57,198 nucleotides of DNA from Williamsia limnetica (lineage in GTDB: Bacteria; Actinomycetota; Actinomycetes; Mycobacteriales; Mycobacteriaceae). The notes below the pieces were generated by a model. It was not told the DNA's origin and searched no databases. It worked only from the letters and a program-made list of their open reading frames with translations. Within the stretch, counting starts at the first letter, position 1, and each line of letters begins with the position of its first letter. The DNA is taken from positions 1-57,198 of the forward strand of contig NZ_QJSP01000027.1 in assembly GCF_003217475.1 (NCBI RefSeq). Direction: 5' to 3'. Made by a program: the position numbers and the translations under genes. Below, in pieces: positions 2,806 to 29,692 of this stretch.

Positions 2806-2823
2806 CTATCCTATCAATGATTG
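2806..2823. promoter_or_regulatory. island operator site A (CTATCCT-ATCA-ATGATTG)
   Basis: An 18-bp imperfect palindrome matching C(T/A)ATCCT-N4-ANNATTG, shared with sites at 11977, 14277 and 29675. It ends 3 nt before the TAATGT -10 of the ACAD operon, so a bound repressor would block RNA polymerase. Its position between the GntR gene and the ACAD operon suggests that GntR is the binder and that it autoregulates. Confidence 0.65.
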
Positions 2824-2826
2824 AAG

Positions 2827-2832
2827 TAATGT
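2827..2832 (+). promoter_or_regulatory. -10 element TAATGT of the ACAD operon
   Basis: TAATGT is followed by 7 nt and ATG at 2840. This supports a leaderless mRNA starting at 2840 instead of the in-frame GTG at 2831, which overlaps the -10 itself. The same TAATGT at the same distance from an operator half-site is seen upstream of the AcuI-like gene. Confidence 0.5.
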
Positions 2833-2839
2833 GATCCCC

Positions 2840-3991
2840 ATGGACTTCACGATGGGTGAGGCGGCAACCCGACTGCGCGGACAGCTGCGCGAATTACTGC
2901 GGGCGCGAATCCCTGCGGATTTCCGGGGCGCGTTCACCGACGACCCGGTCGACCTCGACATTGCGCAGCGATTCTGCCGGTACCTGGCCGCCCAGGGATT
3001 GCTGTGTTTGGCCTGGCCCGAGGAGTTCGGTGGACGTGATGCCTCCGTATGGGAGCAGACGGTGGTCCGCGAGGAGATGTGGGCTCACCACGAACCACGC
3101 GGCGCCCAGTACATGGGGGTGAACTGGGTGGGACCGACGATCATGCGGCACGGCACCTCGGAGCAGCAACGGGACCACCTGCCGCCCATATCCCGGGGCG
3201 AAGTGATTTGGTGCCAGGGCTTTTCCGAACCGGGATCGGGCTCCGACCTGGCCTCCCTTCGCACCGCAGCTCGGCGCAGTGGCGATGGTTGGCGCATCTC
3301 GGGACAGAAGATCTGGACCTCCTACGCCACGATGGCGCAATGGTGCTTCTTGCTCGCCCGGACGTCGACGGGCGACCGTAAGCAGCAGGGGCTCACCGTG
3401 TTCCTGGTGCCGATGTCGGATCCGGCAATCGAGGTGCGTCCCATTCGCGCGATGTTGGGCCCTCATCACCTCAACGAAGTGTTCTTCAACGATCTCGAGG
3501 TCACGCAAGCGCATGTCCTCGGCACAGTCGGGGAGGGCTGGAAGGTGGTCCAAGAGGTGCTCGCCTTCGAGCGTGTGGGCATCGCCCGGTACGCCCGGTG
3601 TGAACGTCTGCTGCAGACAGCCCCGGGCGTGCTCGGTGACGACTGGGACGACCTTCCCGCCGAGTTGCGCGGCCGCTGGACCCGGATGCTGGTGCATTGC
3701 CGGCGTGCACGACTGCTGGCCTACCGGGTCGTGGCGATGCAGAGCGAAGGGCGGGTACAGCCTTCCGACGCCGCGCTGTACCGGATAGCCGTGACCACAC
3801 TCGATCAGCACAGCGCCGAGGTCCTCACCGAGATCGCCTCGTACGCAACCTCATCAAACGAAGACGCCGAACGTTTCCGGCTGGACGTCCGAGATCACTG
3901 GAATTACTCTCAGGCCGCCACCGTCGCGTCGGGCAGCATCGAGATGCAGCGAATCCTGTTGGCCCGTACCCTGCTCCCGGCGGCCTCGTGA
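2840..3991 (+). CDS. acyl-CoA dehydrogenase, large/alpha-type subunit (ACAD1)
   Basis: A 383-residue FAD-dependent acyl-CoA dehydrogenase. The signature GFSEPGSGSD lies near residue 127, followed by the substrate/FAD strand GQKIWTS near 155. The C-terminal GSIEMQRIL replaces the usual GTSEIQR. It oxidises an acyl-CoA at C2-C3. It overlaps the next gene, a shorter and degenerate ACAD, by 4 nt (GTGA). Such long/short pairs form alpha2beta2 enzymes in steroid side-chain catabolism (FadE26-FadE27 type), which suggests a bulky or cyclic acyl substrate. The start at 2840 is chosen from the leaderless promoter layout. Confidence 0.9.
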   Translation: MDFTMGEAATRLRGQLRELLRARIPADFRGAFTDDPVDLDIAQRFCRYLAAQGLLCLAWPEEFGGRDASVWEQTVVREEMWAHHEPRGAQYMGVNWVGPTIMRHGTSEQQRDHLPPISRGEVIWCQGFSEPGSGSDLASLRTAARRSGDGWRISGQKIWTSYATMAQWCFLLARTSTGDRKQQGLTVFLVPMSDPAIEVRPIRAMLGPHHLNEVFFNDLEVTQAHVLGTVGEGWKVVQEVLAFERVGIARYARCERLLQTAPGVLGDDWDDLPAELRGRWTRMLVHCRRARLLAYRVVAMQSEGRVQPSDAALYRIAVTTLDQHSAEVLTEIASYATSSNEDAERFRLDVRDHWNYSQAATVASGSIEMQRILLARTLLPAAS

Positions 3992-4935
3992 ACATCGAGT
4001 TGAGCGCAGAGGCTACAGAATACGGCGCAGCGGCCCTGCGGGCATTCGAGTCTGCGGGCGGCGGGGCGCTGATCGAATCCGCGGAACGCGACCCCGCCGG
4101 ACGCGTCAGCTTGGTCGCGCCGGTCTTCGACGGGCTCGGCGCATGGGACCTGGAGCCCCGCAAGAACGGCGACGAGCTGGAGGCCGCAGCAGCACTGTGT
4201 CGCAGCGCAGGATTCTGGGCGGTGCCCTATCCGGTTGCCGAACGGTTGTCCCGGCCCACCGACCTCGACGTCGACGGGCTGTTGGTGGTCGCCGATCACA
4301 ACCCGACGGCAGCCGTGTCGGATCTCGATCTGCGCTGGGCGGCAGTCACGCTGACCGGTCAGCGATCTGTTGCGACAGCACGCTCGACGAGCGAGTCGCC
4401 GCGTACGTCCGCGTTTGTCACACCCTTGAGCCTCGCGGCGCTCGACGCCGGCGGTGCCGCCGATGTCGCGCTCGGGCTGGTGCTGCCGTGCTGGACTCTG
4501 CTCGGAATGCTGGACCGTGCAATGGCACTCACCCGCGCCCACGTCTTGTTGCGAGAGCAGTTCGGTGGTCCCCTCGCGCAGCTGCAGGGTGTGCAATTCC
4601 AGCTCACCGACGCGGAGGTCGAACGCAGCGGGGTAGAGATCCTCGCAAAGCACGCGTTGTGGAGTATCGAGTCCGGACACACCGACGCCGTCGACGATGC
4701 ACTCGCGCTACGGTTGGCGGCAATCGAGGCCGCAGACGTGGTTTTCCGAGTCGCGCATCAGTTGCACGGGGCGACGGGCTTTTGCGACGAGACCACTCTG
4801 TCCTGGATCTCTCGCTACAGCCTCCCGTTACGGAGGTTGCCGCTCGGCTTGTCGGCGACCGGCGCAGCGCTGACCGAACGTCTCGGACGGCGCGGACTGA
4901 GCGGACTGTTCAACGACGAGGCGGTCGCCCCGTGA
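3988..4935 (+). CDS. acyl-CoA dehydrogenase-like, short/beta-type subunit (ACAD2)
   Basis: A 315-residue ACAD-fold protein, about 70 residues shorter than a standard ACAD. The N-terminal helical and middle beta domains are strongly diverged and the GFSEPxxGSD signature is absent. The C-terminal helical domain is clear: REQFGGPLAQLQGVQFQLTD near 190 and HQLHGATGFCDETTLS near 260. It likely completes the FAD site of ACAD1 in an alpha2beta2 complex rather than acting alone. The GTG start overlaps the ACAD1 stop and its own stop overlaps the ECH start, so the three genes are translationally coupled. Confidence 0.82.
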   Translation: MNIELSAEATEYGAAALRAFESAGGGALIESAERDPAGRVSLVAPVFDGLGAWDLEPRKNGDELEAAAALCRSAGFWAVPYPVAERLSRPTDLDVDGLLVVADHNPTAAVSDLDLRWAAVTLTGQRSVATARSTSESPRTSAFVTPLSLAALDAGGAADVALGLVLPCWTLLGMLDRAMALTRAHVLLREQFGGPLAQLQGVQFQLTDAEVERSGVEILAKHALWSIESGHTDAVDDALALRLAAIEAADVVFRVAHQLHGATGFCDETTLSWISRYSLPLRRLPLGLSATGAALTERLGRRGLSGLFNDEAVAP

Positions 4936-5714
4936 CGTACGACCTGCCGCCCGAGTTGATCGTCGAGTCCGACGGACCGGTGCGGACCGTGGTGATCAAC
5001 CGGCCGGACGATCTCAACGCCGTCAACAAGGATCTGCACTGGGCGCTCGCCAATGTCTGGCGCCAACTCGCCGCCGATCGGGACGCAGCGGTGGTCGTGC
5101 TCACCGGCGCAGGCCGGGCCTTCAGCGCAGGTGGCGACCTGGACTGGATCACCTCGTTCCTCGACGACCCCGTGGCGCGGGACGAGAGCGTGCGCGAGGG
5201 TGCGGAAATCATCGAGGAGATGCTTCGGTTTCCGCTGCCGGTCATCGCTGCCGTGAACGGCCCGGCGGTCGGACTGGGTTGCAGTATGGCGGTGTTGTGC
5301 GACGTGGTGCTGATGTCGGAGAAGGCGTACTTCGCCGATCCGCACGTGGCTGTCGGCCTCGTCGCCGGCGACGGTGGGGCGGCCTTCTGGCCGCTGCTCA
5401 CACCGATCCTTCGGTCGCGCGAATACCTCTACACCGGAGACAGGATTCCTGCGGCGGTTGCCGTCGAACTCGGCCTGGCCACCCGCACCACCACACCTGA
5501 CGATCTGTTGTCGACCGCACACGTATTGGCCGGTAGGTTCGCGGCGCAACCGCCCGAGGCGCTGCGGAGTACCAAACGCATCGTCAACATGTATCTCTCC
5601 CAGGCGCTGTCCGGGCCCTTGCAGGCTGGTTTCGCCGCAGAGGTCGCGACGATGCAATCGGCTGTGCACAGGGAGCGGCTGCTGGCTCTGGGTCGTAAGG
5701 CGGCCGGTCGATGA
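4932..5714 (+). CDS. enoyl-CoA hydratase/isomerase family protein (crotonase fold)
   Basis: A 260-residue crotonase. The oxyanion-hole segments GRAFSAGGDLDW (about 61-72) and NGPAVGLGCSM (about 108-118) are present. The classical hydratase glutamates are not both kept: the PHVAVGLVAGDGG segment (about 137-149) has His and Asp where bovine hydratase has Glu144 and Glu164. That pattern is common in actinobacterial EchA proteins and leaves hydratase, isomerase or ring-cleaving hydrolase activity open. It sits between two ACAD pairs in one tightly overlapping operon, so it probably processes the enoyl-CoA made by them. Confidence 0.85.
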   Translation: MTYDLPPELIVESDGPVRTVVINRPDDLNAVNKDLHWALANVWRQLAADRDAAVVVLTGAGRAFSAGGDLDWITSFLDDPVARDESVREGAEIIEEMLRFPLPVIAAVNGPAVGLGCSMAVLCDVVLMSEKAYFADPHVAVGLVAGDGGAAFWPLLTPILRSREYLYTGDRIPAAVAVELGLATRTTTPDDLLSTAHVLAGRFAAQPPEALRSTKRIVNMYLSQALSGPLQAGFAAEVATMQSAVHRERLLALGRKAAGR

Positions 5715-6901
5715 CGACTCAGGTACGGGAGCACTTCCGCGCCGACGTCCGAGAGTGGTGCAGGACGCATGTGCCCGCCGACTGGCGCCGAGAGCAGACC
5801 GGCGTCGACGACGCCACGTTCGTGGCGTTCCAGCAGTGGTGGTTCGCCGAACTGCATGCGGCGGGATATGCGGTGCCGCACTGGCCTGCGGAGTGGGGTG
5901 GGGGACTGTCGGTCGCAGAACAGGTGGTGCTCTACCAGGAATTGGCCGCCCACGACGCGCCCCGCCTGGTGCTGCCTTTCGTGTCGATCCACCACGCGGC
6001 GTCGACATTGTTCGCCGCCGGCACCGATGAGCAGCGGCAGCGCCATCTGCCGGCGATCCTCGGCGGCGAGATCTGGTGTCAGGGTTTTTCAGAGCCCGGC
6101 GCGGGCTCCGACATGGCAGCGTTGACGACCTCCGCTCGCAAGGTCGACGACACCTATGTCGTCAACGGTCAAAAGCTGTGGGCCAGTGGGGCAGCACACG
6201 CCGACTGGTGCTTGCTGCTGGCGCGCACCGACCCTGAAGCCCCGAAACGTCGCGGTATCTCCTACTTCCTGATGGACATGCGTACCCCCGGCGTGGAGGT
6301 CCGCCCGATCCGGCAGGCGACCGGCGAATCCCACTTCTGCGAGATCTTCCTCAGCGACGTGGTGATCCCGGCCGAGAACCTGGTCGGACCCGAGAACGAA
6401 GGGTGGCGGGTCGCCCAGGAAACGCTCGGCGCCGAACGCGGGATGACCATGCTCGAACTGGCGGAACGTCTGGGCCACGCGGGTTTTCGCTGGCTGGTCG
6501 ACCTCTGCGGGCGAGCCGGGGCTGACGGAACACGGCCGCGCGACAATGCGATGGTCGCAGATCGACTTGCCTGTCTGGAGACCGAACTCACGGGCCTGCG
6601 TGCTCTGTGTGCGGCGTTCGTCGCTGACGACAACCCCGGCCCGGCCGATGCGTCAATCGTGAAGCTGTACTACAGCGAACTACTCCAGCGCATGACCGAC
6701 TTCGGTGCGGACGTGGCAGGCCTCGGCGGTCAGACCGGGCTGCGCAAGCCGATGTCGAGCGGATGGGAGTCGGGGAGTTGGGTGCTCGACTTCATCGGGT
6801 CCTGGGAATGGACGATCCCCGGCGGGACCAGCGAGATCCAACGCACCATCATCGGGGAACGAGGCCTCGGCCTTCCCCGCGAGCCGCAGGTGACGAAATG
6901 A
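5711..6901 (+). CDS. acyl-CoA dehydrogenase, large/alpha-type subunit (ACAD3)
   Basis: A 396-residue ACAD with full signatures: CQGFSEPGAGSDMA near residues 122-135, NGQKLWASGA near 154, and the C-terminal PGGTSEIQRTIIGERGLGLP that is typical of FadE proteins. It is coupled to the ECH upstream (ATGA) and to the short ACAD4 downstream (ATGA). It is the large partner of the second unequal ACAD pair in this operon, so two different dehydrogenation steps, or two chain lengths, are handled. Confidence 0.92.
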   Translation: MTTQVREHFRADVREWCRTHVPADWRREQTGVDDATFVAFQQWWFAELHAAGYAVPHWPAEWGGGLSVAEQVVLYQELAAHDAPRLVLPFVSIHHAASTLFAAGTDEQRQRHLPAILGGEIWCQGFSEPGAGSDMAALTTSARKVDDTYVVNGQKLWASGAAHADWCLLLARTDPEAPKRRGISYFLMDMRTPGVEVRPIRQATGESHFCEIFLSDVVIPAENLVGPENEGWRVAQETLGAERGMTMLELAERLGHAGFRWLVDLCGRAGADGTRPRDNAMVADRLACLETELTGLRALCAAFVADDNPGPADASIVKLYYSELLQRMTDFGADVAGLGGQTGLRKPMSSGWESGSWVLDFIGSWEWTIPGGTSEIQRTIIGERGLGLPREPQVTK

Positions 6902-7974
6902 CCACTACTGGTGTTGAATTCGCTGATCTCCACAATGAGTTGACCGCGGTCGCCCGTGAACTGCTCGCCGCTGCCCCGCGAGACGAGAACGTCGACTGGG
7001 CCCTGATCACCCGATCGGGCTGGACGGGGCTGGAGGTGCCGGAGACGCTCGGGGGCGCCGGCGCGACGTTCGCCGAGGTGGCGGTGATCCTGAGAGAGAT
7101 CGGACGGGCAGTGGCCCGCGGCCCCTACCCTGCGGTCGCCGGCATCGCGGTCGGTGCGCTCGGACTGCTCGAACCGAGTGCGCGCCGCGACCACCTACTC
7201 GCTGCCACCGCGTCCGGGGACAAGGCGCCGGTGGTGGCGATGTCCGGTGAAAGTCTGTTGCCGAACAGCTTTCGGATCGTCGAATCAACCCTCGGTCTGA
7301 AATTGACCGGTTCAATCGACTTCGTGCTCGACGCTCCCGGGGCCGATCGGCTGCTCATTCCTGCGGTCGGGCAGGACGGATTCGCGATCATCGTCGATGT
7401 GGACACGCGCACCCCCGGCCTGCGTGTGGACGAGCAGCCGGTGGTGGACGCGACCCGATCCTTCGGCAGGGTGGCCGTCGGCGACGTGCTGGTGTCGCCC
7501 GACTCCGTGCTGAGATTCCATCCAGACCCCGAACACTCACTGCAGCGCCTCTATGACAGAGCCGGCGTTTCCGTCGCGCTCGACAGTCTCGGGCTGAGCG
7601 AAGCGATGCTGGACGCCACCGTCGCCTACGTCGGTACGCGCGAGCAGTTCGGACGCAGGATCGGGTCATTCCAAGCGGTCAAGCATGCCTGCGCCGACAT
7701 GCTCGTCCAGATCACGATCGCCCGGACACTGGTCGCCGCGGCAGTGGAGGCACTCTGTCATCCAGATACCGAGTCCGGTGTCGCCGCCTCCATGGCGAAA
7801 GCGTTCACCACCGTCATGGCGGTCGAGGTCGCGGGGAAGGCGATGCAGCTCCACGGCGGTATGGGATACACCTGGGAAGGTGGCATCCACGTTCATCTCA
7901 AGCGTGCGATTCTCAATCGGTCACTCTTCGGTTCACCTGCGGCACATCGCAGGAGGATCGCCGAACGGTACTGA
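6898..7974 (+). CDS. acyl-CoA dehydrogenase-like, short/beta-type subunit (ACAD4)
   Basis: A 358-residue ACAD family protein. The N-terminal domain is recognisable (WTGLEVPETLGGAG near 40), the middle domain lacks the SEPxxGSD signature, and the C-terminal domain is well kept (REQFGRRIGSFQAVKH near 245; QLHGGMGYTWEGGIHVHLKR near 320). Like ACAD2 it probably contributes to a shared active site with its upstream partner. It is the last gene of the operon and converges on a FadD gene with only 7 nt between stops. No intrinsic terminator is visible. Confidence 0.85.
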   Translation: MTTTGVEFADLHNELTAVARELLAAAPRDENVDWALITRSGWTGLEVPETLGGAGATFAEVAVILREIGRAVARGPYPAVAGIAVGALGLLEPSARRDHLLAATASGDKAPVVAMSGESLLPNSFRIVESTLGLKLTGSIDFVLDAPGADRLLIPAVGQDGFAIIVDVDTRTPGLRVDEQPVVDATRSFGRVAVGDVLVSPDSVLRFHPDPEHSLQRLYDRAGVSVALDSLGLSEAMLDATVAYVGTREQFGRRIGSFQAVKHACADMLVQITIARTLVAAAVEALCHPDTESGVAASMAKAFTTVMAVEVAGKAMQLHGGMGYTWEGGIHVHLKRAILNRSLFGSPAAHRRRIAERY

Positions 7975-7981
7975 GAGAAGC

Positions 7982-9688
7982 TCACGCCAATTTCTCGGCT
8001 GCCAGAGCCTTGATGTCGTTGGTCTTGATCTTCGCGCTGCCGGTCAGCTTGATGTCGCTCTCGTCGAAGAAGACGACCTCACGCGGGACCTTGTAGCTGG
8101 CGAGTTGCCTCTTCACGAAGGCGCGGATGCCTTCGGCGTCGAGATCGGCGCCGACGTGCGGCACGATGCAGGCCACGACCACTTCGCCGAGGGTTTCGTG
8201 TGGAAGTCCGACGGTTCGCGTCACTTTGACCCCCGGATGGGACACCAGCACCTCGTCGACCTCCTGAGGAGAGACGTTGGCACCGCCGGTTTTGATGATG
8301 TCGGTGAGACGGCCTTCCCAGAAGAGCCTGCCCGCGTCGTCGAGATACCCGCCGTCGCCGGTGGGGAAGAACCCCTCGTCGTCGACGGTCTCGCTCAGCG
8401 GGGTGCCGAGGTAGCCGAGCATCAGGGTGGGGCCTTTGACACAGATCTCGCCGCGCCCGCCCAAGGGGAGGGTGTCGCCGGTCAACGTGTCGACAACTTT
8501 GAATGTCACGCCGGGAAGAGGAGTGCCGCTGCTGCCGCCGGCCTCTTCTTCGGTGGTGTCGGCGGGGAAGATCGATGAGATGGTGAAGGTCTCGGTGTTC
8601 CCGTAGGCGTAGCCGGGTTCGATCCAGTCCGCGGTGACGGAGGGGTGGCGAGCCACCGGAGTGCGGTGGTCGACGAACCGCAGACTGCTCAGATCCGCGG
8701 TGCCCCAGTTCGGGGCGGATTCGAACTGTGCCCACTGGTGCGGCCAGGCGAACGGGAAGTTGACCTTCTCGGTTTCGATGAGATCGAGTGCCTCGACCGG
8801 GTCGAAGGTCCTCTGCAACACGAGAGATCCACCGCTGGAGAGCGTGTTGCCCAGCGCCATCGCGAAGTTTCCTGACCAGAAGAACCCGTTGGCGCTCCAG
8901 CAGCGGATGTTGTCATCGGGTCCGAAATGGTACAGCTGCCGGAAACGCCACAGCTGGATGGCAACTCCGCGGTGTGCGCTGAGAATGCCCTTCGGCTTGC
9001 TCGTGGATCCGGAGGAGAAAAAGATCACGGCGGTGTCGCTCGGCTTGGTCGTGATTGCGGTTGCCTCGATCAGATCCCGCGGTTCGGATGCGCCGCGGGC
9101 AAGGAAGATATCCCAGGTCTCGATTCCGCTCGGCCCGTTCTCACCACCGCCGACCATCGCGAGGTGACGCAGAAACGGATACTTCGCGGACCGCAGGGAG
9201 CCGGGGTCGACCGAGGTGAGCTGTGGTTCGAGGTCGGTCAGGACCGACGAGAAGTCGGTCTGCAGAATCTGCCGGTCGAAGAGCAGCACCGAGATCTCGG
9301 ACACCCCGATGAGGTGGTCGAGTTCGGCCGGTGTGGAGAAGGTGCTCAGGGTGACCGCGACCCCTCCGGCCAGCGACGTCCCGAAGACCGCCGAGATCCA
9401 TTCGGGGCGGTTGGTCATCAGCACGCCCACCCGGCCGTCCTTGCCGATTCCGGCTGCCCGTAGTGCCTGCGCGACCTCGACCGCACGCTCCCACAGTTCG
9501 GCGTACGTCCAGCGGACGACGCCGTCCTCCGTGTGGAAGACGAGGGCTTCGCGCTCACCGTAGAGCGCGGTCACCTCACGGAGGAAGCCGGGCATCGTCA
9601 GTGTGCCGAGGCCGGGCTCTTCGTCGAGCGGTGGACCCGAGACGATCGACAGAGGTCGCACTGAGGAATCAACGGTGGGTGTGCTCAT
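7982..9688 (-). CDS. acyl-CoA synthetase / AMP-dependent ligase (FadD-like)
   Basis: A 568-residue adenylate-forming ligase. The P-loop-like A3 motif FFSSGSTSKPKG is at about 221-232, the A7/A8 region DDAGRLFWEGRLTDIIKTGG lies near 450-470, and the catalytic A10 Lys is in GSAKIKTND near 549. It activates a carboxylic acid to an acyl-CoA through an acyl-AMP. It is the third gene of the AcuI-MaoC-FadD operon, 37 nt after the MaoC-like gene, with an AGAGG Shine-Dalgarno. The acid is presumably an intermediate or product of the ring-opening steps encoded further along the island. Confidence 0.9.
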   Translation of the reverse strand: MSTPTVDSSVRPLSIVSGPPLDEEPGLGTLTMPGFLREVTALYGEREALVFHTEDGVVRWTYAELWERAVEVAQALRAAGIGKDGRVGVLMTNRPEWISAVFGTSLAGGVAVTLSTFSTPAELDHLIGVSEISVLLFDRQILQTDFSSVLTDLEPQLTSVDPGSLRSAKYPFLRHLAMVGGGENGPSGIETWDIFLARGASEPRDLIEATAITTKPSDTAVIFFSSGSTSKPKGILSAHRGVAIQLWRFRQLYHFGPDDNIRCWSANGFFWSGNFAMALGNTLSSGGSLVLQRTFDPVEALDLIETEKVNFPFAWPHQWAQFESAPNWGTADLSSLRFVDHRTPVARHPSVTADWIEPGYAYGNTETFTISSIFPADTTEEEAGGSSGTPLPGVTFKVVDTLTGDTLPLGGRGEICVKGPTLMLGYLGTPLSETVDDEGFFPTGDGGYLDDAGRLFWEGRLTDIIKTGGANVSPQEVDEVLVSHPGVKVTRTVGLPHETLGEVVVACIVPHVGADLDAEGIRAFVKRQLASYKVPREVVFFDESDIKLTGSAKIKTNDIKALAAEKLA

Positions 9689-9725
9689 GACTCGACCTCT
9701 TCCGGTGCCGCTCGATGGGTGGTGA

Positions 9726-10922: not shown

Positions 10923-10934
10923 GTGTTCTCCCGC

Positions 10935-11918: not shown

Positions 11919-11967
11919 CGTGTGTCATTCCTTTCCGGGCCGAGGTGGTGACCACGCAGTGTGGCCG

Positions 11968-11994
11968 ACATTACGTCAATCCTAGTAAGGATTG
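11968..11994 (-). promoter_or_regulatory. AcuI-operon promoter with island operator site B
   Basis: Positions 11977-11994 read CAATCCT-AGTA-AGGATTG, a perfect palindrome apart from the 4-nt centre and the best version of the shared 18-bp site. On the minus strand it is followed after 3 nt by the -10 TAATGT (11968-11973). The stretch GATTGACGTAATGT differs by one base from the ACAD promoter at 2819-2832. The transcript would begin near 11960, giving a leader of about 40 nt. Confidence 0.65.
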
Positions 11995-12003
11995 CAATAC
12001 TTG

Positions 12004-14276: not shown

Positions 14277-14294
14277 CTATCCTTGTAAACATTG
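14277..14294. promoter_or_regulatory. island operator site C (CTATCCT-TGTA-AACATTG)
   Basis: The shared 18-bp site in the 52-nt gap between the divergent FadD (start 14261) and CaiB (start 14314) genes. The left half-site is identical to sites A and D, and the right half-site keeps ATTG. One bound protein could control both directions. Confidence 0.6.
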
Positions 14295-14300: not shown

Positions 14301-14306
14301 TAGCGT
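14301..14306 (+). promoter_or_regulatory. -10 element TAGCGT of the CaiB operon
   Basis: TAGCGT, 7 nt, then the ATG at 14314: a leaderless layout. It lies 6 nt downstream of operator C. Confidence 0.5.
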
Positions 14307-19692: not shown

Positions 19693-19706
19693 GGTGACCC
19701 CCTTCC

Positions 19707-21137: not shown

Positions 21138-21176
21138 GAGGAGTCCTGACTTTGTGTTGTGCAACGGGACGAGGTG

Positions 21177-22883
21177 TCACTGCTGGCCCTCGGCGTACCA
21201 GGTCCGGAACTCGTCGTAGCTCGGCATCTCTTCGGAGTTGGCCTTCGGGTCGACGGCGACGTGGATGACACCGGGCCTGCCACTGGCGTAGGCGCGTTTG
21301 ATGGCGGGCGCGATGTCCTCGTCTCGGTCGACGTACTCGCCGTAGCAGCCGAAGCCCTCGGCGACCTTGTCGAGACGGGTATCGCTGCTCCAGTGGACGC
21401 CGGTCTCGAGTGATCCCTGGCCGTAGGTGCGTTTGTAGACACCCACCTCCAGACCCCAGGCGTAGTCCACGGCGACCACGCAGACCAACGGAAGGTTGAG
21501 GCGAGCAGCTGTTTCGAGTTCGGCGATGTGGAACTGGAACGACGAATCGCCGGTGATCAGCATCATCGGGCGTTTGCCACCGTCGGCGACACCGGCGCCG
21601 ACCGCGTACGGCAGACCGGTACCGAGATGGCCGAAGTTCTGGTTCCACATGACGTCATGGGGTTTGGCCTGCGAGTACGTCCAGCCGAAGATGGTGGTGG
21701 CCCCGCCGTCGCGGACCATGATGCCGTCGGATGGGAAGTCCTTGGTGGCCTCGACGATGAGCCTGGCCGGATGTACCGGCGACATGCCGGAGGGCGCTGT
21801 CTCGGCCAGCTCCGCGAGCTGTGCTGCATCTTCTTTGATCCACGCTGCCAGTTCGGGCGTGGCGGTCCGCGGCGAATCCTTCAGGGCCTCCGCCAGCTGA
21901 GGGACGATGGCTCGGAGGTCTCCGACGAGCGGTACGTCGATCGCCCGGTTGACGCCGATCGCCGCCGGATCCTGTTCGATGTAGATCCAGCTGCGGTTGG
22001 CCTCGCCTGCCACCCAGTGCCTGCCGCGCCCGAAGTGCACCGGTTCGCCCAGTTCGGTGCCGATGGCGAGGCAGAGATCGGATTTGACGACGGCGTCGAC
22101 CGCGGCCGTCGAGAAACCGTAGGGGAAGGTGCGGTCTTCGAGACCTTCGATGAACGAGGTGCCGCCGGAGGTCTGGATGACCGGGCAGGCGAGCAGGTCG
22201 GCGAGTTGCTTCACCGAGGCTCCTGCGCGCGTGGTGTGGACCCCGTGACCGACCAGGAGGATTGGTTGCTTCGCTGCGCCGATCAGGCGGACGGCCTCAT
22301 CGATCTGAGCTTGGCCCGCGGTCTGTCCGACGAGACGGTAGGCCTTCGGTGGTAGGGCCGGCGGCACGTCGAGTTCTTCCTGAATCACGTGCGACGGGTA
22401 TTCGATGTACACCGGGCCCGGGGTTCCCGAGAGCGCCTTGCGCAGGCCCTCTCGGATGATCTCATCGGTTTGATCGGCGTATTCGATACTCGCGCTGTAT
22501 TTTACGGACGGCTCGATCAGCCCGGACTGCTGGACGAACTGGATGCGGCCGCGGCGGACACGCTGCTCGGTGATTCGTGCGCGTTGCCCGCCGAGGAAGA
22601 TGACCGGAGAGTTCTCCACCTTGGCGCACATGATGGCGCCGGCCAGGTTTGCGATACCGGGGCCGAGGGTGCCGATGCACACCGCGGCCGTACCGGTCAT
22701 GCGTGACACCGCCTCTGCCATGAAGCCCGCGGACTCTTCGTGGTGGGGTGCAACAACATTCCAGCCGCGCTCTTCGGCGAGATGGAACAGGTGGACGAAG
22801 TTGGGATCGGGGATCCCGAAGATGGTGTTGATGCCTTCGGCCTCGAAGAGGTCGAGAATGCGTTCGTAGACTTTAACCGACAT
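21177..22883 (-). CDS. thiamine-diphosphate-dependent enzyme (2-hydroxyacyl-CoA lyase / acetolactate-synthase-like)
   Basis: A 568-residue ThDP enzyme of the AHAS/oxalyl-CoA decarboxylase/2-hydroxyacyl-CoA lyase superfamily. The cofactor-activating Glu is in HHEESAGF (residues 47-54), the central domain is present, and the ThDP/Mg motif starts at GDSSFQFHIAELE near 444. The motif ends VVAVDYAWG, where the usual Asn is replaced. The FAD-type features of true AHAS are not evident. Its neighbours are an aldehyde dehydrogenase and a 2-oxoglutarate dioxygenase, so cleavage of a 2-hydroxyacyl-CoA to an aldehyde is an attractive hypothesis. Benzoylformate-type decarboxylation or carboligation cannot be excluded. 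Confidence 0.83.
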   Translation of the reverse strand: MSVKVYERILDLFEAEGINTIFGIPDPNFVHLFHLAEERGWNVVAPHHEESAGFMAEAVSRMTGTAAVCIGTLGPGIANLAGAIMCAKVENSPVIFLGGQRARITEQRVRRGRIQFVQQSGLIEPSVKYSASIEYADQTDEIIREGLRKALSGTPGPVYIEYPSHVIQEELDVPPALPPKAYRLVGQTAGQAQIDEAVRLIGAAKQPILLVGHGVHTTRAGASVKQLADLLACPVIQTSGGTSFIEGLEDRTFPYGFSTAAVDAVVKSDLCLAIGTELGEPVHFGRGRHWVAGEANRSWIYIEQDPAAIGVNRAIDVPLVGDLRAIVPQLAEALKDSPRTATPELAAWIKEDAAQLAELAETAPSGMSPVHPARLIVEATKDFPSDGIMVRDGGATTIFGWTYSQAKPHDVMWNQNFGHLGTGLPYAVGAGVADGGKRPMMLITGDSSFQFHIAELETAARLNLPLVCVVAVDYAWGLEVGVYKRTYGQGSLETGVHWSSDTRLDKVAEGFGCYGEYVDRDEDIAPAIKRAYASGRPGVIHVAVDPKANSEEMPSYDEFRTWYAEGQQ

Positions 22884-23814
22884 GTGCGCTGCCTTCCATG
22901 GCTATCGCGAAGCTCTTGGTGATGTGGTCGAGGTGGGCCGACGGGACGACCGGCAGGATCCACGGGTCGCTGGTGTCGCGGATGGCTGCCATCTGTTCGT
23001 CGACTTCTTCGACGGTCCAGGACGGCCGGTATACGCCGGGTGTCTCGGCGATGAAGGCCCGCGCGACCCTACCGGCGATGGCCACCAGCATTTCCCCTGT
23101 GATCGAACAATTCTCGTGCGCGAGCCAGCCGACCGCGGGGGCCGTCAGCTCAGGTCCCATCGGTGGGTACGCAGAGGTGTCAAGACCCTCCGCGAGCCGG
23201 GTGAGAGCGGCGGGAACGATGACGTTCGACTTCACCCCGAACTCCTGGCCCTCGAGTGCCGCCACGTTCGACAAGCCGATGATCCCTGCCTTGGACGCGG
23301 CGTAGTTGGCGACGTTCTTGTTCCCGTAGATGCCACCGATCGACGAGGTGAGCACGATCCGTCCGTACCCGGCATCGCACATCAGCGAGAATGCGGGCCG
23401 AACAACGTGAAAGGCGCCCCGGAGGTGGACATCGAGCACGGCGTCGAAGTCCTCGTACGTCATCTCGGCGAGAGAGGCGTATCGATTGTTGCCCGCGTTG
23501 TGGACGAGGATGTCGATCCGGCCGAAATGCTCGACGGCGGTGTCGATGATGGCCTGCCCGCCTTCGGGGGTGGCCACCGACGCCGTGCTGACCACGGCCT
23601 CGCCTCCGGCCGAGACAATTTCGGCAACAACTTCTTCGGCGGGTCCGGCGTCGACGCTCTCTCCGCTGATCGCGGCTCCGGGGTCGTTGACCACGACCCT
23701 TGCGCCTTTGGAGGCGAGTAGCAGAGCATAGGCGCGACCCAGCCCCCTACCGGCGCCGGTGATCACGGCGACCCGACCATCGAATCTGAGCTCGGGTGCT
23801 GGCTGGTCGGTCAC
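22873..23814 (-). CDS. SDR, MFE-2/3-hydroxyacyl-CoA dehydrogenase type
   Basis: A 313-residue SDR resembling the dehydrogenase unit of peroxisomal multifunctional enzyme 2: TGAGRGLGRAYALLLASKG (19-37), VVNDPG (41-46), NAG at 106-108, and Tyr171/Lys175. About 60 residues follow the usual SDR core, as in MFE-type proteins. It probably oxidises a 3-hydroxyacyl-CoA. GTG start overlaps the BVMO stop (GTGA), and its 3' end overlaps the ThDP gene by 11 nt. Confidence 0.87.
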   Translation of the reverse strand: MTDQPAPELRFDGRVAVITGAGRGLGRAYALLLASKGARVVVNDPGAAISGESVDAGPAEEVVAEIVSAGGEAVVSTASVATPEGGQAIIDTAVEHFGRIDILVHNAGNNRYASLAEMTYEDFDAVLDVHLRGAFHVVRPAFSLMCDAGYGRIVLTSSIGGIYGNKNVANYAASKAGIIGLSNVAALEGQEFGVKSNVIVPAALTRLAEGLDTSAYPPMGPELTAPAVGWLAHENCSITGEMLVAIAGRVARAFIAETPGVYRPSWTVEEVDEQMAAIRDTSDPWILPVVPSAHLDHITKSFAIAMEGSAHVG

Positions 23815-25646
23815 TTCTCGAGCACCAGGCCTTCGAGCTCGCCCGTGTCGCGCCAGGCCTGCAGCAACTCGGTGAGTTCGTAGAACCCTCCCCAGAACGG
23901 ATCACCGAGGAACGACCGGCCGTTCGGTTCGCCCTCGCTGTTGTAATAACCGGGTGTGCACTCGGAGGTGAACGTGCTGTTGTCGACCGAGTTCGCCCGG
24001 ATCGTCGCGACCCATTCGTCTTCGGCCTGTGCGGTCGGCTCGACGTACGTGGCTCCGCGGTCCTGGGCTTGTTTGATGATGTAGGCGATGTGGTCGGCCT
24101 GTTGCTCGAACATCAGAGTCGTCGATGCGGTGACACCGCCTTGGACAAATCCGGTGGCGAAGTGGTTGGGGAATCCGTGCGCCATCACCCCGTGCAGGGT
24201 GCGGAACCCTTTGCCCCAGTGGTCGTACAGCGATGTCCCCTCGCGGCCGGCGAAGGGTTTGATGTCGAACTGCCGGTCAAGGGCCGTGGTGATCTCGAAG
24301 CCGCTGGCGAAGACGATGCAGTCGAACTCGTGCTCGACACCGTCGACGATGATGCCCTTGTCGGTGATACGTTCGACGCCCTTCGTCTCGGATACGTCGA
24401 CGAGGGTGACGTTGGGCCGGTTGAAGGTCGGCAGATACTCGTCGTTGAAGACGGGGCGCTTACACATGTTGCGGTAGTACGGCTTCAACAGTTCTGCAGT
24501 CGCCGGATCGTCGACGATCTGCTCGACGCGTTGCCGCAGGCGCTCCATCGCCCGGTAGTCCTCGATCTCTTTGAGCTTCATGAACTCGGCGGGATCGGCC
24601 AGGGCCGCCCAGCCCGAGAAGTTCTCGGTCGCATTGAGTTTCGCGGCCATGTTGCGCGAGACCTCTGTCCAGCCGTCGCAGATGAGGTCGGGCTCGCCGG
24701 GAGAGTAGAACGAGAAGGCCGCGTTGTGGAAGTTGCGCTGCCGCGCCGCCCGCCAACCCGGTTCCAGGCTCGCCACCCACTCGGGGTCGGTCGGATAGTT
24801 GGCCCGCTCGAAGATGTAGGACGGAGTGCGTTGGAAGACCGTCAGGTGCTTTGCACCCTTGGCCAGATGCGGGATGGCCTGGATGCCACTCGATCCCGTG
24901 CCGATGACCGCGATCTTCTTGTCGGCGATCTTGTCCAGTCCACCGTGCAGGTCGCCGCCGGTGTACTCGTAGTCCCACCGTGCCGTGTGGAACGTGTGTC
25001 CCTTGAAGTCCCTGATGCCCGGGATGCCGGGGAGTTTCGGCCGGTTGTACGGACCCTGGCAGAGGATGACGTGGCGGGCGCGGATCTCATCGCCGCGGTT
25101 GGTGCTGATCTGCCACCTGTTGACCTCCCCATCCCATTTCAGTGAGCGGATCAGGGTGTGGAAGATCGCGTTGTCGTAGAGCCCGAAGTGGGTGCCGATG
25201 CGCTGGGCGTGTTCGAAGCACTCGTCGCCCTTGGAGAACTTCTCCTTGGGGATGTACCCGGTCTCTTCGAGTAGGGGAAGGTAACAGTAGGCATCGGAGT
25301 CGATTTGGATGCCGGGGTAGCGATTCCAGTACCAGACCCCGCCGAAGTCGCCGCCCAGTTCGATGATTTTGAAGTCCGTGACACCCGCCTGCTGAAGGCG
25401 ATGCGCGGTGATCAGGCCGCAGAACCCGCCGCCGAGGATCACCACCTCGATGTCGTCGGTGATCGGCTGCCGCGGCTCCACCGGCGTGTGGGGATCGCCT
25501 TCGTAGAACTCCGAGAAGTCGTCCTCGGCCTCCAAGTACTGCTGCTGTCCGTCGGCACGGATTCGCTTGTCGCGCTCGAGGAGGTACTTCTCGCGCAGGG
25601 CCGGGATGTCGACGTCGGGAGTCTGCGTAGGTGCGCAGGGCTGCAT
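23811..25646 (-). CDS. type I Baeyer-Villiger monooxygenase (FAD/NADPH)
   Basis: A 611-residue flavin monooxygenase with the full BVMO fingerprint FxGxxxHxxxW(D): Phe214, Gly216, His220, Trp224, Asp225. It is flanked by two Rossmann motifs, GGGFCG (72-77) and GTGSSG (249-254), and [11 protein letters not shown] lies near 102-112. The length and the roughly 60-residue N-terminal extension recall the cyclopentadecanone/steroid-type BVMO group. It inserts oxygen next to a ketone to give an ester or lactone. The operon also carries an SMP-30 lactonase-like gene and SDRs, a classic alcohol-ketone-lactone-hydroxyacid set. AAGGAA Shine-Dalgarno. Confidence 0.92.
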
Positions 25647-25657
25647 GGTGATTCCTT

Positions 25658-25702: not shown

Positions 25703-25722
25703 GCAGATGGGGAGGTGGATGG

Positions 25723-27162
25723 TCAGTCGAGATCGGTGGGCGCGCCGGTGCCCATGTACATGGCCAGGTTGTGGTGCAGGTTGACGATGCTGCGCTCGCG
25801 ATAGGGGTTGGGCTTTGGGCCGGTGAAACCGCGTGCCTTCATGCCCTTTTGGACCGCGGCCATGTTCGAGAAGTCCTGTGGCAGCACGGTCCGCCACCCG
25901 GGATCGTCCTCGGGGGTGTACTCCCACTTGGTCTCGGGCTCTTCGCCTTCGGGGAACAGTTCGTAGACTGCCGCTTCGAAGATGCACTTGTCCGGGTCGT
26001 CCCCGTATGGCCGCGCGCTGTAGCAGAGCATGTTGTTCAGCGCGTGCCCGATCTGGAAGTTGGGGAAGATCTGCCACGCGGTACCGCTCTTGGCGATCAC
26101 CTCGGGGTCGACTTCGGGCCACACCACCCCGCGGTTGGCATCGTCCTTCTTGGCCGAGGCGAGCCAGTGCCGCAGTACCTCACCCGGCGGGGTGCCTTCG
26201 GGGAGTTCGTCGGTCAACCGCTCGGCGGCATCGACCAATGTCCGGGTGGTGTTCGTGTTGGCGTTCTCCCAGGTGAAGTTCTGTAGCTCGATGGTCGACA
26301 GGCGTGCATCGGGACCATCGGCGACGCGAAGCTTCGCTTGGTTCTCCTCCATGCCCTTAGGTGCGTCATAGCCGATGTTGCTGTGCCGGCCCTGGTAACG
26401 CGACCAGCCCAGGAACGTACCGAACTTCCGGAACTCGGGATGGGTGTAGGGCACATGGTAGGTCTCCATGAAGGCCTCGAGGGCGACCTTCCAGTTGCAG
26501 TCGAACACCAGCCATTTCCGCCACCGGTAGCGCATGTTCTCGAGCCCGAACGGGTCGAGGAGGGTGGCTGCCGGTTCGAGATACTTGCGCAGCGGCTCAG
26601 CGTCGGGATCCATGTTGATCCATATCCAGCCACCCCAGGTGTCCACCTGAACGGGTGTGAGTCGAGTTCGGTTGTCGGTCAACCCTGTCGGCCAGTCCTC
26701 TTTCTCGGCGGCCCACGTGTTGTTGCCTTCGAGGTCGTATGTCCATCCGTGGAAACCGCAGACGAAGGCTCGGCAGCTGCCACGTGCCTCGTGTTCGCCC
26801 GGTGCCCTGTCGACCAGTCGGCGCCCACGGTGGGAGCAGACGTTGTGGTACGCGCTGATGCTGCCTGTGTTCCCTGGTCCGGCCAGACCGGTGCGCGTGA
26901 TGATGATGGAGTCGTCCATGATCTCGTACGTGAGGTAGTCGCCGACCTTGGGGATCTCCTCGACCCGGCCGACCTGCTGCCACACCTTCGACCAGAGCAG
27001 ATCGCCTTCGGCTCTGGCGTAGTCCCGCGATAGGTAGGCATCGACGCCGATCGTCAGCGGGGTCGTCGCCGGTGTCTGGGCGCCTGGTTTCTGGGCCCCT
27101 GGTTTCTGGGCCCCTGGTTTCTGGGCCCCTGGTGTCTGGGCGTTCTCGACAGTATCGGTCAT
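25723..27162 (-). CDS. Rieske non-heme iron oxygenase, alpha subunit
   Basis: A 479-residue aromatic-ring-hydroxylating-type oxygenase. The Rieske [2Fe-2S] ligands are Cys109/His111 and Cys135/His138. The mononuclear iron ligands include His236 and His241 in ETYHVPYTH. The N-terminus (residues 11-30) is a PGAQ(K/T) tandem repeat, unusual for the family and probably disordered. No beta subunit, ferredoxin or reductase gene is seen in the window, so it may be a homo-oligomer fed by housekeeping electron carriers. ATG at 27162 with AGAAGG Shine-Dalgarno; the frame is open further upstream but overlaps the SDR. Confidence 0.92.
   Translation of the reverse strand: MTDTVENAQTPGAQKPGAQKPGAQKPGAQTPATTPLTIGVDAYLSRDYARAEGDLLWSKVWQQVGRVEEIPKVGDYLTYEIMDDSIIITRTGLAGPGNTGSISAYHNVCSHRGRRLVDRAPGEHEARGSCRAFVCGFHGWTYDLEGNNTWAAEKEDWPTGLTDNRTRLTPVQVDTWGGWIWINMDPDAEPLRKYLEPAATLLDPFGLENMRYRWRKWLVFDCNWKVALEAFMETYHVPYTHPEFRKFGTFLGWSRYQGRHSNIGYDAPKGMEENQAKLRVADGPDARLSTIELQNFTWENANTNTTRTLVDAAERLTDELPEGTPPGEVLRHWLASAKKDDANRGVVWPEVDPEVIAKSGTAWQIFPNFQIGHALNNMLCYSARPYGDDPDKCIFEAAVYELFPEGEEPETKWEYTPEDDPGWRTVLPQDFSNMAAVQKGMKARGFTGPKPNPYRERSIVNLHHNLAMYMGTGAPTDLD
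27076..27135. repeat. four tandem 15-bp in-frame repeats in the Rieske gene
   Basis: CTGGGCCCCTGGTTT repeats four times, the first and last copies each with one base change. On the coding strand this gives four PGAQ(K/T) units near the N-terminus. Copy-number change by slippage would keep the frame. Confidence 0.85.
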
Positions 27163-27188
27163 GACCTTCTCCCGTGTGAAAAATGTGG

Positions 27189-28037
27189 TTAGGACCGCGT
27201 CATGGCTGCGCGGAACGACTCGTCCTTGAGGAAGAGCGACGTGTGGTCGGCACCCATGTGGGTCCACTTCAGGTTGAGACCGCCGTCGACCAGGAGTGTC
27301 TGCCCGGTGATGTAGGTCGACAGGTCGGACAGCAGGAACAGGATGGCCCCGGCCTGCTCCTCGGGGCTTCCTCTGCGTCCCATGGCGATTGCCTGCTGGT
27401 CGCGATCGGGGTCGTCGTCGACGTACATGAGTGAGGCCGGCGTTGCGGTGACGCCCGGTGCGATGGCGTTCACGCGGATTCCGTCGGTCGCCAATTCGAC
27501 TGCCATCGTGCGGGTTGCGGCAACCAGCGCCGCTTTGGCGGTGCCGTAACCGATGTGGAACGGGGCCGTGTTCATTCCACTGATCGACGAGATCGACACG
27601 ATGGAACCCGGTGATCCCGCGGTCTTGAGTTCGGCGGCGACGGCCTGGCTCATGAAGAACATCGTCTCGAGGTTCTGGGTGAACAGACCTCGCCAATCGG
27701 CCCGCGTGACGCGGGTGGCGGGCATCCAGGTCGCGGGCCCGGCGCCGCCTGCGACGTTGACCAGACCGTGCAGATCTCCTGGGGTTCGCCGGACCTTACG
27801 AAGGACCGCCGCGATCCCGTCGTCGGTCGAGGCGTCGGCGGCCACCGGGATCACCGACAGGCCCTCGGCGGCGAGCGGTTCGATGTGAGTGCCGAGATTG
27901 TCTTCTGAGCGGCTGACCGCGATCACTGTGGCGCCGGACTGAGCGACCATACGGGTCACCGAGGTTCCGATCCCACCACCTGCTGCCCCCGAAACGATCA
28001 CGACTTTGCCGTCGAGCCCGATGAAGTCTTGTGTCAC
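27189..28037 (-). CDS. short-chain dehydrogenase/reductase (SDR)
   Basis: A 282-residue SDR with a slightly altered cofactor loop SGAAGGGIGTS (16-26), NVAGG at 94-98, Ser150/151 and Tyr164/Lys168. A C-terminal tail of about 30 residues extends beyond the usual VDGG. GTG start overlaps the SMP-30 stop (GTGA). Placed between the lactonase-like gene and the Rieske oxygenase, it may turn the hydroxylated product into the ketone used by the BVMO. Confidence 0.87.
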   Translation of the reverse strand: MTQDFIGLDGKVVIVSGAAGGGIGTSVTRMVAQSGATVIAVSRSEDNLGTHIEPLAAEGLSVIPVAADASTDDGIAAVLRKVRRTPGDLHGLVNVAGGAGPATWMPATRVTRADWRGLFTQNLETMFFMSQAVAAELKTAGSPGSIVSISSISGMNTAPFHIGYGTAKAALVAATRTMAVELATDGIRVNAIAPGVTATPASLMYVDDDPDRDQQAIAMGRRGSPEEQAGAILFLLSDLSTYITGQTLLVDGGLNLKWTHMGADHTSLFLKDESFRAAMTRS

Positions 28038-29632
28038 GGTCGGCTTCCCGACCGCAGCGCGAGGACGCTGCCTTCCGCATCGCCCGAGATGTACAGCGTC
28101 CCTTCGGCGTCGGCGGCAATACCTGCATAGGGCCCCTGGGGTCCGGAGAACGGTGCCAGGCCGACGAGAGGCTTCGGGGCGACTCCGGGAGGAGCGCCCA
28201 CGGGAAGATTCTGGGCCAGCGTCTGTCGGGCCTTCGACTCGAGGTCGAACGCGACGAGTGCCTTCGCATCGACGTCGACGATGTAGAGCATGCTGCCGAC
28301 GACGACGATGCCCTGGGGGCGTTCGAGTCCGTCGACCAGGGTGTCGACGCCCGAACCGGTCACCGAGACGATCCGTCCCGCACCGGCTTCGGAGACGAGT
28401 AGGGTGCCGTCGGAGGTGAACGCGACGCCGGTCGGGTGGTCGAGACCGCCGGCGAGTTCTATCGCGTTTCCGGACTCGACGGAGTACACCCTGCCTGTGC
28501 CCAGGTCCGCGACGGCGATGGCTCCGGTGGCCGAGACAGCGACGCCGTAGAGCTGGTCCAGTCCCTCGACCAGGATGTCGCTCTCGCTGCTCGCTGGGTG
28601 GTACCGCGACACCGTGCCGTTGCCGGTGACGATGAACTCGCCGTCGCCGGTGGCGGTGAGACCCCTGATGTATCCCGGGTATCCGGGACTGAACAGCATG
28701 CCCAGCGTGTGCAATTCGCCGCCCCGCGGCTTCGCCAGCAAGAAGGTCCCGTCGGCGATGTAGAGCGTGCCGTCTGCTCCGATGGTGATGTCAAGAGGCC
28801 AGGTCAACCCGTCGGGCAGAGCGGTGCGCGTCTCGCCGCCACCGAGAATCTCGGTGATCTGGCCGGTGAAGCCGGACACGAAGAGTCGGTCGCCTACGAA
28901 TGTCAGGTTGTCGAGCCCGGGGCTCAAACTCGCGAGAACTGTCTGGTCACCGTTGCGCGGATTGATTCGCAGCACCTGCCCCGAGGCGACCTGGGTGGAG
29001 ACGATGAAACCCTCGGAGTCGAACTTCACGGCGTCGGGGACCCCGAGATCGCCTGCAACACGCTCGGGTTCGCCACCCTCGGGATCGATGCGCCAGATGT
29101 CGTTGGTTCCGAGCAGGGGATAGTAGAGCTTGCCGTCGGGTCCGACCTCCATGCCGTTGGGCATCGGGAGCTCGTCCAGCAACACCCGCGGCGCACCGCC
29201 GGTTGGATCTATTTCCATCAGCCGGCCACCGACGCGGCACTCGTTCACGAAGAGTCTGCCCTGATGAATGGTGATGCCGTTGGCGCCGGGGAGGTCGTCG
29301 CGCACGAGGCGGGTGGTCCCGTCGGGACTGCGCACGCTGACCCGGCCGTCGTAGTACTCGGTGATGTACATGTCGCCCGAGGGCGCGAAGGCGACGTCGT
29401 CAGGTGCGACGATGTCGCCGCCCTTTGCGCTGATCGTCTCCAGCTGTCCGGTGTCGAGGTCGAGGGCGCTGATCTGGCTGCCTGCCACCTGTGCGACATA
29501 GATACGACCGTCCGGACCCGTTCGGATCCCGTTCGCGCCGAACAGCCTGCTGGGTGCTGTGAGCCGCTCCAGACCCCACCCTTCGGCGACGGTGATGGAT
29601 GTCGAACCGGTGTAGCGGGCCGCCTGCGTCAC
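28034..29632 (-). CDS. SMP-30/gluconolactonase/LRE-like beta-propeller protein, double length
   Basis: A 532-residue beta-propeller protein of the SMP-30/gluconolactonase family. Repeats of the type GPDGRIYVAQ, PDDVAFAPSGDMYI, MPNGMEVGPDGKLYYP and HPTGVAFTSDGTLLV run through the whole length. Single-propeller members are about 300 residues, so this is probably two fused propellers. Several members hydrolyse lactones with a metal ion, and next to a BVMO a lactonase role is plausible. It is the first gene of the ten-gene operon. GTG start with AGAGAGG Shine-Dalgarno; operator D lies 43 nt upstream. Confidence 0.83.
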   Translation of the reverse strand: MTQAARYTGSTSITVAEGWGLERLTAPSRLFGANGIRTGPDGRIYVAQVAGSQISALDLDTGQLETISAKGGDIVAPDDVAFAPSGDMYITEYYDGRVSVRSPDGTTRLVRDDLPGANGITIHQGRLFVNECRVGGRLMEIDPTGGAPRVLLDELPMPNGMEVGPDGKLYYPLLGTNDIWRIDPEGGEPERVAGDLGVPDAVKFDSEGFIVSTQVASGQVLRINPRNGDQTVLASLSPGLDNLTFVGDRLFVSGFTGQITEILGGGETRTALPDGLTWPLDITIGADGTLYIADGTFLLAKPRGGELHTLGMLFSPGYPGYIRGLTATGDGEFIVTGNGTVSRYHPASSESDILVEGLDQLYGVAVSATGAIAVADLGTGRVYSVESGNAIELAGGLDHPTGVAFTSDGTLLVSEAGAGRIVSVTGSGVDTLVDGLERPQGIVVVGSMLYIVDVDAKALVAFDLESKARQTLAQNLPVGAPPGVAPKPLVGLAPFSGPQGPYAGIAADAEGTLYISGDAEGSVLALRSGSRP

Positions 29633-29674
29633 GGTGGGCCTCTCTTTGTCGAAGCTGCACTACTTCAATCATTA

Positions 29675-29692
29675 CTATCCTTGTTAGGATTG
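29675..29692. promoter_or_regulatory. island operator site D (CTATCCT-TGTT-AGGATTG)
   Basis: The shared 18-bp palindrome upstream of the ten-gene operon. On the minus strand it reads CAATCCT-AACA-AGGATAG and runs directly into TAATGATT and AAGTAGTG, which may hold the -10. TTCAATC and GATTGAA flank the region as an outer inverted repeat. Confidence 0.62.

Follow-up and report, generated by a model that had tools for sequence, protein, structure and literature searches.

An 18-bp palindrome at the operon promoters of a catabolic island in Williamsia limnetica and its candidate GntR-type regulator

Contig NZ_QJSP01000027.1 of the Williamsia limnetica assembly GCF_003217475.1, which is 57,198 bases long and is referred to here, at its full length, as the window, carries an island of catabolic genes whose promoter regions share an 18-bp palindrome. 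The island comprises a gene for a GntR-type protein (gntR) and five operons, and the repeated signal is very probably the binding site of this adjacent protein, as judged from its placement, conservation and co-occurrence. All positions are those of the window.

Gene families were assigned with Pfam and NCBIfam profiles. The regulator gene (1935-2738, minus strand) encodes a GntR winged helix-turn-helix (wHTH) joined to an FCD domain, and its product is the predicted binder and autoregulator. The acyl-CoA dehydrogenase (ACAD) operon (2831-7974, plus strand) encodes ACAD1 (2831-3991), a crotonase-type protein (4143-5714), ACAD2 (5711-6901) and ACAD3 (6763-7974, start uncertain). The AcuI operon (7982-11918, minus strand) consists of AcuI (10935-11918), a MaoC/HadA-like protein (9726-10922) and an acyl-CoA ligase (7982-9688). 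It is followed by the divergent ligase-SDR pair (12004-14261, minus strand; SDR 12004-12762, acyl-CoA ligase 12759-14261) and CaiB operon (14314-17510, plus strand), the latter with a CaiB-type CoA transferase (14314-15468), a CoA transferase (15465-16745) and a crotonase (16746-17510). The oxygenase operon on the minus strand begins with five genes from 29632 to 22873, namely an SMP-30/NHL propeller protein (28034-29632), an SDR (27189-28037), a Rieske oxygenase (25723-about 27162), a PtlE-like Baeyer-Villiger monooxygenase (BVMO; 23811-25646) and an SDR (22873-23814), and continues from 22883 to 17532 with a thiamine diphosphate (TPP) enzyme (21177-22883), an aldehyde dehydrogenase (19707-21164), TauD (18859-19779), an SDR (18119-18961) and a CMD protein (17532-18122). 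The operon assignments made in the preliminary description are correct, and the oxygenase operon does have the ten open reading frames (ORFs) it was credited with once the SDR gene at 27189-28037 is counted. The listed 657-residue ORF (25723-28037) misreads the Rieske gene, whose start is near 27162: residues 1-178 of the ORF lie over the SDR gene in another frame, so that an out-of-frame SDR read is joined to the Rieske sequence, and because of this misreading the partial Rieske matches scored '0.3' in related loci belong to the SDR region.

The enzyme families make it a reasonable guess that the island breaks down a bulky substrate, probably an alicyclic or polycyclic ketone. AcuI scores 530 bits against an NCBIfam equivalog cutoff of 440. 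The closest match of the BVMO is structure 5mq6, a polycyclic ketone monooxygenase, with phenylacetone monooxygenase next; the matches of the TPP enzyme are acetolactate synthase and 2-hydroxyacyl-CoA lyase, with cyclohexane-1,2-dione hydrolase as a weaker one. ACAD1 has matches among actinobacterial ACADs, Tcur3483 for example, enzymes with a role in steroid metabolism. About 270 N-terminal residues of the crotonase-type protein at 4143-5714 gave no Pfam match at E 0.001.

The palindrome lies at 2806-2823, 11977-11994, 14277-14294 and 29675-29692, where the four sites reported earlier were verified with no mismatch to the pattern CWATCCTNNNNANNATTG. With palindromic matches counted on both strands, the window holds ten matches at six places with up to two mismatches, compared with a mean of 1.92 (standard deviation 1.45, largest 6) in 100 dinucleotide shuffles of the window. 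In the organism's own genome (52 contigs, 6,353,494 bases, the window being one whole contig) the exact pattern occurs at four places, all on the window contig, and one extra place appears at one mismatch (C7:203934); a scan for the motif at unrelated loci, which the preliminary description had proposed as a way to refute the regulon, therefore returned no other exact site. At up to two mismatches on both strands there are 157 matches vs 80 for a reversed-pattern control. The degenerate palindrome CWATCMTNNNNAKGATWG occurs exactly at three places in the genome, each of them in the window, and has no match with one mismatch. The site at 14277-14294 is the least symmetric of the four, with two mismatches to CWATCMTNNNNAKGATWG, and the letters that break its symmetry are seen again in several orthologs from Williamsia and elsewhere. 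A further palindrome, CAATTCACACAAGAATTG at 34428-34445, has two mismatches to the site pattern and lies beyond the island, within an ORF or at its end; it is probably there by chance.

Each site, taken as a putative operator, can be placed relative to promoter-like elements. Operator 1 (2806-2823, plus strand) lies between gntR and the ACAD operon, 67 bp from the gntR start; it is abutted by a third 9-bp element, CAAGTGTTT (2797-2805, plus strand; two mismatches to CAAGTATTG), and followed by a -10-like TAATGT (2827-2832, plus strand) of the ACAD operon. ACAD1 has an ATG at 2840, and the ORF list starts it at the GTG at 2831. Operator 2 (11977-11994, minus strand), before the AcuI operon, has perfect CAATCCT and AGGATTG arms, an exact third element (11995-12003, minus strand), which reads CAATACTTG on the plus strand and CAAGTATTG on the minus strand, and a -10-like TAATGT (11968-11973, minus strand). 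Operator 3 (14277-14294, plus strand) sits in the divergent ligase/CaiB promoter and is without a third element; a -10-like TAGCGT (14301-14306, plus strand) ends 7 nt before the CaiB ATG at 14314. Operator 4 (29675-29692, minus strand) precedes the oxygenase operon and abuts a weak variant of the third element, CAATCATTA (29666-29674, plus strand), with three mismatches. Judging from the spacing between these promoter elements and the ATGs at 2840 and 14314, the ACAD1 and CaiB messages are possibly leaderless.

The counts of placement in related genomes cover the window together with 25 island stretches and five more loci; matches were dropped if their identity was under 60% or if they began beyond query residue 25. 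The site precedes the operon heads almost without exception, in 29 of 29 cases for ACAD1, 12 of 12 for AcuI, 10 of 10 for CaiB, 10 of 11 for the ligase, 21 of 21 for the propeller gene and 25 of 26 for gntR itself, and it was absent before all five internal genes tested (0/19, 0/18, 0/21, 0/10 and 0/10; 0/78 in total). Six Nocardia-type genomes have the motif and gntR on different contigs or at least 77 kb apart, and all six of these unlinked sites stand directly before an ACAD1 ortholog. That unlinked ACAD1 operons keep the site is the strongest sign that it works with a factor acting in trans. Conservation upstream of orthologous operons, whose lack the preliminary description had named as a possible refutation of a single regulon, is thus seen even where the operon has parted from gntR, and together with the operon-head placement and the lack of any other exact site in the genome it supports the prediction of such a regulon. 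The island can accordingly be read, from these sequence patterns, as one co-regulated degradation pathway. Two flanking genes were excluded from the regulon, an NDMA-dependent alcohol dehydrogenase (29863-31068) and an aldo-keto reductase (537-1508), with a site in 0/4 cases each. Williamsia faeni (G001, L103-L108) has two gntR copies (87% and 82%), each with its own, partly different cluster and sites.

The anatomy of the operator was derived from 152 distinct sites, all above 20 bits and each oriented by its better flank, with L140-L144 left out as repeats of genomes already present. Their palindrome consensus is CWATCCTTRYRAGGATTG, and TTG stands directly before the palindrome in most of them. 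The third 9-bp element, at up to two mismatches to CAAGTATTG, directly abuts the palindrome in 112 of the 152 sites and was found in 0 or 1 of 152 at each of 21 other offsets tested. Relative to the palindrome it is upstream in 24 of 29 ACAD1 promoters and downstream in 15 of 21 oxygenase-operon promoters, and it is absent from the ligase/CaiB site (0/10). Its occurrence on either side relative to transcription suggests a protein-binding unit rather than a promoter box. It also speaks against the repeat being a shared sigma-factor or promoter element instead of an operator, a reading which the location of the sites in promoters and the TTG and TANNNT flanks at fixed distance in most of them might invite. 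We regard that reading as extremely improbable, given also the palindromic form of the repeat, the lack of any further exact match in the genome and the way the repeat tracks one regulator gene.

The relation between motif and regulator was examined in 401 genomes of the family, evenly drawn from a larger group. The strict palindrome, CWATCCTNNNNAGGATWG, is present in 39 of them and a GntR ortholog (at least 64% identity; one a fragment) in 43. The palindrome occurs in 35 of the 43 genomes with the ortholog vs 4 of the 358 without (Fisher p 4e-38, a nominal value as the genomes are related) and in none of the 47 genomes that have only GntR paralogs (at most 51% identity). The four genomes with the motif and no ortholog are G069, G257, G310 and G344; the stretches L053, L054 and L066 (1,668 bases), from three of them (all except G069), gave no match to 30 window proteins at E 1e-8, and the motif matches in these three genomes are read as chance. 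In the organism's own genus the motif is found at up to one mismatch in six of nine genomes, four of which have the GntR protein; G003 and G005 have one isolated match each, with no island orthologs beside it (L028, L030). Chance recurrence of the motif is ruled out by the shuffles, the genome scan and this co-occurrence.

A matrix built from just the four window sites was then used to scan 300 bp upstream of each GntR ortholog, with a pass level of 11.17 bits, the 99.9% level of random 360-mers. An upstream site above this level was found for 29 of 30 copies, for 14 of 15 further copies and for L144, that is, for 44 of 46 ortholog copies, and the matrix peaked at 3.6 bits in 60 coding-control stretches. 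Among 80 named loci, partly from the same genomes, 78 pass, including Actinomadura, Actinocorallia, one of two Amycolatopsis and a Frankia metagenome-assembled genome. Amycolatopsis acididurans (L202) lacks the site at gntR and has it instead at the head of an SDR-gntR gene pair, and Nocardia paucivorans (L173) fails with a degenerate site only. Loci with this GntR protein are found in Williamsia, Gordonia, Rhodococcus, Nocardia, Aldersonia, Actinomadura and Amycolatopsis as well as in some mycobacteria.

The GntR protein at 1935 had been named as candidate binder from its position only; the association across genomes and the upstream sites of its orthologs now support it beyond position. Position and co-occurrence alone cannot separate a binder from a constant target, so that another co-inherited regulator, encoded elsewhere, might bind the palindrome and gntR might be merely one of its targets, which would also suit the ACAD1 site being unlinked to gntR in six genomes. 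We consider this quite improbable, because GntR stays while the gene content of the island changes. In the Mycolicibacterium stretches L212 and L215 (about 20 kb each), only GntR, ACAD1 and ACAD2 of 30 window proteins align with an identity of at least 60%, and both stretches have a perfect 18-bp palindrome; the absence of the exact motif from every genome with only GntR paralogs points the same way.

Promoter geometry bears on what the bound protein would do. A -10-like TANNNT begins 2-3 nt after the palindrome in 29 of 29 ACAD1 and 11 of 12 AcuI promoters, and the putative ACAD1 and AcuI operators are flanked by a -35-like and a -10-like element, so that a protein bound there would stand in the way of polymerase. 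Because the operator sits just before the -10 in these two sets, the GntR protein is read as an autorepressor. In some mycobacteria (L215, L218) the operator extends to the aligned gntR start. At the remaining promoters the geometry is less clear; a TANNNT starting within 7 nt of the palindrome is found in 9 of 10 CaiB promoters, 0 of 10 ligase promoters and 1 of 25 gntR promoters.

We are confident, on these comparative grounds, that the palindrome acts as the operator of the GntR protein at 1935-2738, which would repress gntR and the five operons until an intermediate releases it; physical binding, repression and the inducer are what we infer. Through the four operators the protein would control its own gene and the five island operons. 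When substrate is lacking, a GntR dimer would occupy CWATCCT-N4-AGGATWG, often extended by the abutting CAAGTATTG, and would overlap the core promoter, blocking RNA polymerase. The protein would be released when an intermediate of the pathway, probably a carboxylic acid or an acyl-CoA, binds the FCD domain.

Several observations weigh against this interpretation. At two mismatches the degenerate palindrome CWATCMTNNNNAKGATWG has 32 places in the genome vs 16 for its reversed control, 5 of the 32 being in the window. The operon-head counts are not independent, as the ligase and CaiB genes, and mostly also ACAD1 and gntR, share one site. Eight of the 43 genomes with the GntR ortholog lack the exact motif; four of these have clear variants (G124, G204, G298, G038), and the other four (G099, G111, G384, G380) only weak ones of 10.8-14.6 bits. 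Two ortholog copies fall below the 99.9% level, L094 (10.8 bits) and L250 (-8.6 bits; its gntR follows an SDR gene), and sites before gntR in the Nocardia group are mostly degenerate (L093-L098, 10.8-14.6 bits; 14 named loci, 10.8-19.7 bits). Conversely, two of 20 paralogs (41-51% identity) pass the matrix, L234 at 23.0 and L238 at 13.3 bits, the other 18 failing. Finally, a -10 follows the palindrome directly in only 5 of 21 oxygenase-operon promoters, and in 0 of 10 ligase and 0 of 25 gntR promoters. In many Rhodococcus and Gordonia oxygenase-operon promoters the palindrome is 142-185 bp upstream of the gene, before a possible -35, which is where an activator or dual regulator might bind. 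That the GntR protein acts in this way rather than as a repressor is nevertheless unlikely, in view of the operators directly before the -10 at ACAD1 and AcuI and of those that reach the gntR start in the mycobacteria.

The repressor candidate belongs to the FadR subfamily of GntR proteins, with a wHTH followed by an FCD domain and a six- or seven-helix C-terminal domain. Pfam gives 46.5 bits for PF00392 (cutoff 27) and 43.4 bits for PF07729 (cutoff 24.3), the GntR domain starting at residue 14. The structural model (mean predicted local distance difference test score, pLDDT, 82.1) has an all-helical C-terminal domain with helices at 81-94, 99-119, 123-139, 145-161, 166-191, 199-217 and 221-243, and an extra low-confidence tail helix. 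Histidines 156, 209 and 231 of the FCD domain are invariant in 30 of 30 orthologs. The aspartate that is a metal ligand in the FCD domain of NanR is replaced by alanine in 29 of 30. The best NCBIfam and PDB match is NanR of E. coli, a weak one (62 bits vs a cutoff of 260; E 1.4e-6).

In alignment to NanR and PdhR, the positions of FadR Arg35 and Arg45, and of NanR Arg59 and Arg69, are occupied here by Glu/Asp38 and Tyr48. Tyr48 is found in 30 of 30 aligned orthologs and 78 of 80 named ones, the other two having His; it is not strictly required, because these two (L209, L212) retain a perfect palindrome. According to PMC4494728, FadR Arg35 and Arg45 read bases (G), and according to PMC8012715 NanR Arg59 and Arg69 are thought to do so; the G-reading recognition-helix arginine of FadR is thus replaced by Tyr48 in the island protein. 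Paralogs with Leu48 (46-51% identity; L222-L225, L227-L232, genus g29) have a common upstream element close to GCTATTTATACCATTACTGCTAAAATAGC, with exact GCTATTT/AAATAGC arms and a 15-nt spacer in 10 of 16, and the L234 paralog (44% identity, Arg48) has upstream CTATCTTTTATAAGATAG, an 18-bp palindrome that keeps the geometry but differs in its inner bases. These paralog elements may offer a lead on how the code changes.

The island regulator resembles the FadR subfamily in its GntR wHTH and all-helical FCD domain, its predicted divergent autoregulation and the palindromic operators in its promoters. The subfamily consensus is TKGT..ACMA with GT and AC 2-3 nt apart, to which PMC4494728 names NanR and BioR as exceptions, and the island operator, as given by the consensus of the 152 sites, does not fit this TKGT/ACMA box. 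In the case of NanR, three cooperating dimers occupy a (GGTATA)3 operator (PMC8012715), and a comparison with the three 9-bp elements of the island sites suggests itself. The NanR repeats are direct GGTATA repeats, however, and the island units are not; nor does the island protein, whose GntR domain begins at residue 14, have the long N-terminal extension that mediates cooperativity in NanR. It is a tentative and, in our view, rather doubtful proposal that the protein represents a FadR-subfamily lineage with a switched DNA code, in which Glu/Asp38 and Tyr48 read AGGATWG arms and a 27-bp three-unit operator is bound in a NanR-like manner. Glu/Asp38 and Tyr48 would then replace the two G-reading arginines, and AGGATWG arms the TKGT/ACMA box. 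The 27-bp operator would consist of three 9-bp YAANNNTTR-like units, occupied by up to three cooperating dimers as in NanR, without its N-terminal arm. Paralogs with Leu48 or Arg48 would carry other CTAT-armed operators, residue 48 and its neighbours setting the code.

The motif had been described as unlike those of KstR and KstR2, and this was confirmed, since neither the KstR2 consensus AnCAAGnnCTTGnT nor the KstR consensus matches the four sites at up to one mismatch. Control of the island by KstR or KstR2 is ruled out, as none of the sites at the four promoters fits. The KstR2 consensus is that reported in PMC3068626, and the KstR/KstR2 regulons described there resemble the island in being autoregulated and local, in serving bulky-substrate catabolism and in occurring in the same bacterial groups. 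They differ in that KstR and KstR2 are TetR-type repressors with 14-bp palindromes, whereas the island regulator is of the GntR/FCD type. A text search of PMC6498646 found no mention of KstR. BkaR, as portrayed in PMC3920632, is likewise a repressor that regulates its own gene and has a palindrome both in that gene's promoter and at catabolic genes nearby, but it is TetR-type and its core is GTTA(N)T(N4)A(N)TAAC.

Taken together, the locus is predicted to be a GntR/FCD regulon that is local and autoregulated and whose operator departs from the subfamily consensus. Among the matches listed in searches of one open-access library, no paper was on the motif, the regulator or the island, as judged from titles and the openings of abstracts. 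The regulon would join about two dozen genes, gntR and those of the five operons, under a named candidate regulator, and the operator would allow a direct search for the inducer and, through it, for the substrate of the BVMO/Rieske/TPP pathway. Paralogs with another residue 48 and other upstream elements would be a natural test bed for changes in FadR-type specificity. Outside the regulon, a nitrilase-like protein adjoins an MSMEG_0569-family flavin oxidoreductase at 31203-33495. Elsewhere in the window a DAPG hydrolase domain protein (49469-50518) lies near an AraC-type regulator with a cupin domain (51896-53056).

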